Source: Halomonas sp.
GTDB lineage: Bacteria; Pseudomonadota; Gammaproteobacteria; Pseudomonadales; Halomonadaceae
Length of the DNA: 45,400 nucleotides
Assembly: GCA_003552795.1 (NCBI GenBank)
Contig: PUOM01000004.1
Location: forward strand, 1 to 45,400
Direction: 5' to 3'
The notes below the pieces were generated by a model that ran no database searches, was not told where the DNA came from, and worked only from the letters and a program-made list of their open reading frames with translations. Of this stretch, positions 17,961 through 18,827 are shown piece by piece. The position numbers and the translations under genes were made by a program. The stretch's first letter is position 1, and the number at the start of each line of letters is the position of its first letter.

Positions 17961-18248
17961 TCAGGCGTGGCGTCGCGGCGCCTCGAGCGCTCTTAGCAGA
18001 CCGATCACGTCCTCGGCGGGCTTGTGATACTCCTGCATCAGCGTCCGCAGTCGATCCTCGAACTCATCGCGACCGGGGGCTTCGCCTGGCGATGGCGGTG
18101 TTGCCGCCGGGGCCTCGGCGGGGATATCCGAATCGACGTCTGAACTGTCGAGTTCGCGAAGCGCCTCGGCAAAGGCATCGTCGAGTTCACGGAACTTGCG
18201 CAGTTTTTCACGCTCGTCCATCGGTTTGCGCTGTGTCTGCTGTTTCAT
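17961..18248 (-). CDS. MvaT-like short protein lacking the C-terminal DNA-binding domain (hypothetical)
   Basis: DEFEDRLRTLMQEYHKPAEDVIGLLRALEA aligns with EFKERLESLMKEFDKSAADVIALLDP of adjacent MvaT (14/24 identical); no YKNPNTGE/GGNHKTLKAW segment. Confidence 0.7.
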   Translation of the reverse strand: MKQQTQRKPMDEREKLRKFRELDDAFAEALRELDSSDVDSDIPAEAPAATPPSPGEAPGRDEFEDRLRTLMQEYHKPAEDVIGLLRALEAPRRHA

Positions 18249-18343
18249 TCTGGACCGGTCAGTCGTGGAGACGGCATGGGAAGATAAGTATCGGGGTGGG
18301 AGTGGAACACCGGACGCTTACCGAGATAGTGGGTGACTGCGCC

Positions 18344-18349
18344 ATTATA
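18344..18349 (-). promoter_or_regulatory. Candidate -10 element (TATAAT) for the short MvaT-like gene
   Basis: Minus strand GGCGCTATAATGGCGC about 95 nt upstream of the ATG at 18248; no strong -35 seen. Confidence 0.45.
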
Positions 18350-18389
18350 GCGCCACCGAGAGCCCGAGCGAAACTGGGGCCCATACGCC

Positions 18390-18411
18390 GACGGCGCCCG
18401 AAGGCGCCGTC
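18390..18411 (-). terminator. Hairpin with UUCG tetraloop downstream of mvaT
   Basis: Minus strand GACGGCGCC-TTCG-GGCGCCGTC, 9-bp perfect stem; no U-tract. Confidence 0.55.
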
Positions 18412-18449
18412 GTCACACTGGCCTGGAGAACCTCACCGCAAGTGCCGGA

Positions 18450-18827
18450 TTACTCTTCGACGCGCACCAGCCAGGACTCCACGGTATCGCTGCTGTACTC
18501 GTCTTTCCACGCCTTCAGCGTCTTGTGGTTACCGCCGCGAGTTTCCACGACCTCACCGGTGTTGGGGTTCTTGTAGATCTTCAGCTTGCGCTTGCGGCGC
18601 CCGCCTGCCGGAGCGGCGGCAGCCTTGGGAGATGCGGTAGCGGGCTTCGGATCGAGCAGCGCAATGACGTCGGCGGCGCTCTTGTCGAACTCTTTCATCA
18701 GCGACTCGAGCCGCTCCTTGAACTCGAGCTCGGCCTGCAGGCGCTTGTCATTCTGCAGCTTCTCCATATTGGATTGAAGCTCTTTCAGCTGCTGCTCCAT
18801 CTGCATGTATTCGTTGATCAGGGACAT
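18450..18827 (-). CDS. mvaT: MvaT/MvaU-type H-NS family transcriptional regulator
   Basis: MSLINEYMQMEQQLKELQ, ELEFKERLESLMKEFDKSAADVIALLDP, RKLKIYKNPNTGEVVETRGGNHKTLKAWKDEYSSDTVESW; AAGGAAG RBS. Confidence 0.93.
   Translation of the reverse strand: MSLINEYMQMEQQLKELQSNMEKLQNDKRLQAELEFKERLESLMKEFDKSAADVIALLDPKPATASPKAAAAPAGGRRKRKLKIYKNPNTGEVVETRGGNHKTLKAWKDEYSSDTVESWLVRVEE

Follow-up and report, generated by a model that had tools for sequence, protein, structure and literature searches.

Silencers of the MvaT class (MvaT, MvaU, TurB and Pmr; NCBIfam NF041859, structures 5B52 and 8H8H) carry a terminal dimerisation site (TDS), a central dimerisation site (CDS) and a DNA-binding domain (DBD). 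The CDS of TurB spans residues 32-58, and an R8-E37 salt bridge stabilises its TDS (PMC13141940). H-NST, an N-terminal-only derivative of H-NS, antagonises H-NS, most likely via hetero-oligomerisation (PMC7074111), and also lacks the oligomerisation site (PMC6936261). Among truncated derivatives, a 2019 review lists H-NST for H-NS and the small variant sRok for Rok, with the entry "unidentified" for MvaT (PMC6936261, Table 1). Here we describe a 95-residue protein of Halomonas sp., termed mini-MvaT, which by sequence and predicted local structure is a complete MvaT oligomerisation domain (TDS-like helix, insert and CDS hairpin) without a DBD. It is encoded beside full-length mvaT in a stretch of 45,400 nucleotides (contig PUOM01000004.1, positions 1 to 45,400; hereafter the window):

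17961 to 18248, minus strand: mini-MvaT, DBD-less MvaT-family protein, 95 residues; open reading frame (ORF) with ATG start, orthologs in about 224 of 275 family genomes, and a constrained dN/dS (ratio of nonsynonymous to synonymous substitution rates)
18450 to 18827, minus strand: full-length mvaT, 125 residues, presumed oligomerisation partner (NF041859, E=7e-50; MvaT_DBD, E=1e-22)

An initial annotation of this ORF, with the same boundaries, had claimed that it shares a gap-free block of 24 residues with the adjacent MvaT, that this block is MvaT-related and that the DBD is absent, and these points are borne out. A single BLASTP comparison of the two proteins reproduces the block without gaps (14 of 24 residues identical, E=2e-7). 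The Pfam model MvaT_DBD (PF22055) matches residues 83-119 of the window MvaT (E=1.1e-22) and, in the same scan, finds nothing in mini-MvaT, from which the AT-pincer DBD of MvaT/MvaU silencers is accordingly missing. NF041859 itself matches residues 62-89 of mini-MvaT (E=4.6e-6), at 26.8 bits and thus under its curated cut-off of 75 bits, and it matches all 31 orthologs scanned; besides two MvaT models, no family was matched by more than six orthologs. When a profile of the mini-MvaT family was searched against 177,635 distinct PDB sequences, the top two matches were the MvaT N-terminal structures 5B52 (E=0.027) and 8H8H (E=0.041), with values of 0.0086 and 0.057, respectively, from a deeper alignment. 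Profile-profile comparison with Halomonas MvaT gave a probability of 90.9-93.4% over 32-33 columns, and among the matches listed for the family hidden Markov model (HMM) in 7361 ORFs of the loci examined, those that were not mini-MvaTs were MvaTs. Together these searches indicate that the resemblance to MvaT is not due to chance, and by alignment the C-terminal block corresponds to residues 32-58 of TurB, giving mini-MvaT the CDS of MvaT/MvaU silencers.

The block had been taken as the shared part of the two families; it is real, but it appears not to be the sole region in common, as the N-terminal helix matches MvaT-type proteins too. The protein can be divided as follows:

18144 to 18215, minus strand: N-terminal helix, residues 12-35, TDS-like (MvaT/MvaU), from AlphaFold2, a TDS HMM, permutation and hhalign
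18072 to 18143, minus strand: Pro/Ala-rich linker, residues 36-59, low-confidence and probably flexible, an insertion beside the TurB D27 hinge (AlphaFold2 confidence, hhalign)
17982 to 18071, minus strand: helical hairpin, residues 60-89, homologous to the MvaT CDS (BLASTP, NCBIfam, hmmsearch against PDB, AlphaFold2)

AlphaFold2 predicts helices at residues 12-35, 60-73 and 78-89 of the window protein and leaves residues 36-59 uncertain, the predicted local distance difference test falling below 50 at residues 39-43 and 45-56. A canonical ortholog is modelled with helices at 12-34, 51-76 and 81-93, an MvaT-like arrangement after the insert; the predicted template modelling score is low in both models (0.32 and 0.38), and only the local helices are relied upon. 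Across orthologs the N-helix (DEREKLRKFRELDDAFAEAL) holds 16 invariant residues among about 20, the linker is variable, often reading DIPTGPPVRSL, and the C-terminal block mostly ends in LGRIA. The window copy (17961-18143) has neither the common linker motif PTGPPVRSL nor the terminal LGRIA, and its block appears nearer to MvaT than the block of most orthologs.

For the N-helix, a TDS HMM was built from 51 Pseudomonadaceae MvaT/MvaU proteins and scored on N-terminal halves of mini-MvaTs with the block removed, against a background of ORFs from the loci examined, spurious ones included. The mini-MvaT halves outscored the 7033 background ORFs, reaching 12.2 bits at best with a median of 7.1; the highest score of any other ORF was 5.5 bits. 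The top matches aligned at an offset of 12 (MvaT residue 3 to mini-MvaT residue 15). In a permutation test preserving the hydrophobic pattern, P was 0.0007 pooled, 0.0005 for MvaU/TurB types and 0.05 for MvaT types; as this grouping was made post hoc, with the sequences already seen, the pooled value is the fairer one. In hhalign, residues 15-90 of mini-MvaT aligned to residues 3-59 of MvaT with a probability of 96.3% and with the insertion beside the D27 hinge, a score reached once when the N-region was permuted 300 times. When the window protein was compared by tblastn with 72,556 plasmid records, five matched (E=0.4, query residues 15-95), and each of the two that were opened held one MvaT/MvaU-type gene. 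The TurB TDS residues whose counterparts in mini-MvaT are invariant or almost so include L4, F7, R8, A10, A13, L14, M18 and L21, and the salt-bridge pair R8/E37 maps to R20, which is invariant, and E64, present in at least 90% of orthologs. Searches of Pfam, PHROGs and PDB with the family or the N-helix alone yielded nothing credible for this helix, and it showed no similarity to the TDS of Halomonas MvaT (profile permutation P about 0.4). Matches in ORFs of about 900 residues from four genera read DTREKLRHFFEVDRNFV, which we take to be the C-terminus of pyruvate dehydrogenase E1 (AceE), and were set aside as chance matches. The homology of the N-helix to the TDS, which here means similarity to Pseudomonadaceae MvaT/MvaU proteins, is therefore well supported, if less strongly than that of the block to the CDS.

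The gene is widely conserved, usually single-copy and chromosomal. Genome searches found it in 36 of 58 relatives, all of them congeneric with the window strain and drawn from a set of 37 such genomes, and across Halomonadaceae its matches fall in 12 of 24 genera. Named records come from Halomonas, Billgrantia, Vreelandella, Chromohalobacter, Litchfieldella, Aidingimonas and Bisbaumannia, all members of Halomonadaceae. Outside this family, order-wide and phylum-wide profile searches gave only weak matches, and those checked fall in MvaT proteins. Further weak matches stem from genera without mini-MvaT, and the one that was checked (G185) lies within the MvaT gene of that genome. Neither phage records nor viral contigs contained relatives. 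dN/dS is below 0.5 in all 32 independent close ortholog pairs, with no sign of the frame decay that would have spoken against the gene. Thus, the ORF is a real gene that evolves under purifying selection. The mvaT gene was found in all 254 good-quality Halomonadaceae genomes, including those of genera without mini-MvaT, which makes mini-MvaT an accessory. Additional divergent MvaT paralogs occur in some Halomonadaceae (L066, L067).

The expectation of conserved synteny beside mvaT was likewise confirmed: of 80 named loci, 70 have mvaT upstream of mini-MvaT in the same orientation, usually in the order cmk, rpsA, mvaT, mini-MvaT. Downstream, in convergent orientation, stand a gene with a CxxCxxCC domain and the queC region. 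In many relatives (L071, L080 and others) an opposite-strand gene, AraC-like by sequence, stands between mvaT and mini-MvaT; the window is without it. In Litchfieldella, Aidingimonas and Bisbaumannia (L086, L090, L103, L113, L121, L123) no mvaT was found within 6 kb, and in four of these loci (L086, L090, L103, L121) mini-MvaT directly follows a gene resembling PAS-type regulators, near an agmatinase-like gene. Given this relocation, mini-MvaT does not belong invariably to an mvaT operon. It most likely has a promoter of its own, as suggested by the recurrence of a pair of boxes upstream of its orthologs:

18344 to 18372, minus strand: likely promoter of mini-MvaT, TTCGC-N18-TATAAT, about 95 bp 5' of the start codon, the pattern occurring once in the window

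TATA[AC]T is found within 130 bp upstream of 53 of 80 orthologs, as against 3.7 expected from shuffles, and the full TTCGC-N17-20-TATA[AC]T in 24 of 80 upstream regions, as against 0.01. A generic scan with the TTGACA/TATAAT consensus reports no promoter for mini-MvaT. Ahead of the start codon there is no clear Shine-Dalgarno sequence in the window (18249-18268) or in many orthologs; in many of the latter GGTAACGA-ATG or GGTAGCGA-ATG recurs, abutting the start directly.

In light of the H-NST precedent (PMC7074111, PMC6936261), we propose that mini-MvaT forms mixed oligomers with full-length MvaT and weakens this silencer, and modulation of MvaT filaments in this way is the likely and most economical function. 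Transcribed from its own promoter, mini-MvaT would enter MvaT oligomers chiefly via the CDS, the site most likely to engage the local MvaT, and its TDS may prefer self-pairing given the salt-bridge residues R20 and E64. As it would bring a floppy hinge and no AT-pincer DBD, the filament would bind DNA with lower valency and be less continuous, and filaments could thereby be shortened, capped or un-bridged, setting the firmness with which xenogeneic genes are silenced. This would amount to H-NST-like behaviour as a standing component of the housekeeping genome. We regard the model as a whole, a vertically inherited DBD-less MvaT-family protein that enters and weakens MvaT filaments, as reasonably probable. 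Several observations weigh against it. The TDS of mini-MvaT resembles Pseudomonas MvaU/TurB types, not the adjacent Halomonas MvaT, in which M8/K37 (N-terminus at 18717-18827) stand in place of R8/E37 of TurB, which casts doubt on a pairing of the two proteins through this site. No mvaT was found in the neighbourhood of mini-MvaT in about 10 of the 80 loci, and at least 40 family genomes hold MvaT without mini-MvaT, which is hence not required. Foldseek searches with the two models returned no structural match (E=8.1 and 6.5). Finally, mean pairwise identity is far higher in the N-helix (88%) than in the TDS of MvaT (72%) or the CDS of mini-MvaT (57%), pointing to a possible further conserved partner.

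This last point also speaks for an explanation in which mini-MvaT is an adaptor or co-silencer: the CDS hairpin would dock on MvaT, and the N-helix (DEREKLRKFRELDDAFAEAL) would either recruit a different partner of very high conservation, such as the transcription machinery, or stabilise bridging, as Hha does for H-NS. The near-invariance of the helix, with an identity close to the 90% of the MvaT DBD, and the M8/K37 mismatch of the local MvaT, which speaks against simple TDS pairing, would fit such a role, but the helix itself scores as an MvaT/MvaU TDS and matches none of the known interaction motifs; we hold the adaptor to be unlikely. A blend of the two proposals, namely a built-in DBD-less MvaT paralog with an elastic hinge insert that is dedicated to regulating filament length or bridging in xenogeneic silencing and whose N-helix also docks a conserved third partner, can be put forward only tentatively. 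Alternatively, a former relative of MvaT might act alone as a homo-oligomer via both sites, in a scaffold role unrelated to MvaT. The R20/E64 pair would suit self-pairing, and the separate promoter and the relocated gene copies of three genera (Litchfieldella, Aidingimonas, Bisbaumannia) would accord with independence; nevertheless, the retention beside mvaT in most loci and the CDS residues in common with MvaT make this improbable.

As to origin, the initial annotation had inferred that the neighbouring mvaT was duplicated in tandem and that the copy then lost its DBD. Adjacency, common strand and the identities in the block are what such an event would leave; however, the N-helix is unlike that of the neighbour and like Pseudomonadaceae MvaU/TurB TDSs, the CDS blocks of orthologs from other species are less MvaT-like than that of the window copy, and the gene is common to about 12 genera and sometimes lies far from mvaT. 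By these comparisons mini-MvaT is nearer to the MvaU/TurB branch than to the adjacent MvaT, for which reason a recent duplication is not supported and appears very improbable; the gene is old and vertically inherited. Equally, a short, helical and charged product might arouse suspicion of a spurious ORF or a chance coiled-coil similarity, but the conserved orthologs, dN/dS, the likely promoter and the profile-specific MvaT matches rule this out almost completely.

In the open-access literature searched, MvaT and Halomonadaceae were never co-mentioned, and MvaT and Halomonas were co-mentioned in one paper, which names MvaT once; within these limits mini-MvaT would be the first DBD-less protein of the MvaT class. 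If the proposal is true, an entire bacterial family controls its silencer by means of a dedicated subunit, and the effect of filament geometry (hinge flexibility and valency) on silencing becomes testable in laboratory strains of Halomonas, which are non-pathogenic. Mini-MvaT might also help explain why genes introduced into Halomonas hosts are silenced.

Compared with MvaT, MvaU, TurB and Pmr, mini-MvaT has the TDS and CDS in the same order, an equivalent of the R8/E37 pair and the conserved hairpin FExRLxxLMxEY...V..LL; unlike them, it lacks the linker-plus-DBD region (YKNPNTGEV...RGGN), possesses an insert of at least about 19 residues beside the D27 hinge and a hyper-conserved N-helix, and scores far under the family cut-off. 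Like Hha and YdgT, it is proposed to be a small partner of the N-terminal domain of a silencer but, unlike them, it is homologous to that silencer. If its role is as proposed, it would share with Mip (gp4 of phage LUZ24) the modulation of MvaT assemblies; Mip, however, is phage-encoded and is listed as a non-related interaction partner. A parallel in architecture is H-NST of Escherichia coli islands, also a silencer paralog made up of the N-terminal oligomerisation part and devoid of a DBD, with mini-MvaT being homologous to the oligomerisation domain of MvaT instead of H-NS. Whereas H-NST belongs to the H-NS class and resides on horizontally acquired islands, mini-MvaT belongs to the MvaT class, is chromosomal and vertically inherited, mostly stands beside the silencer gene in the cmk-rpsA-mvaT arrangement and, unlike H-NST, appears to keep both dimerisation sites.
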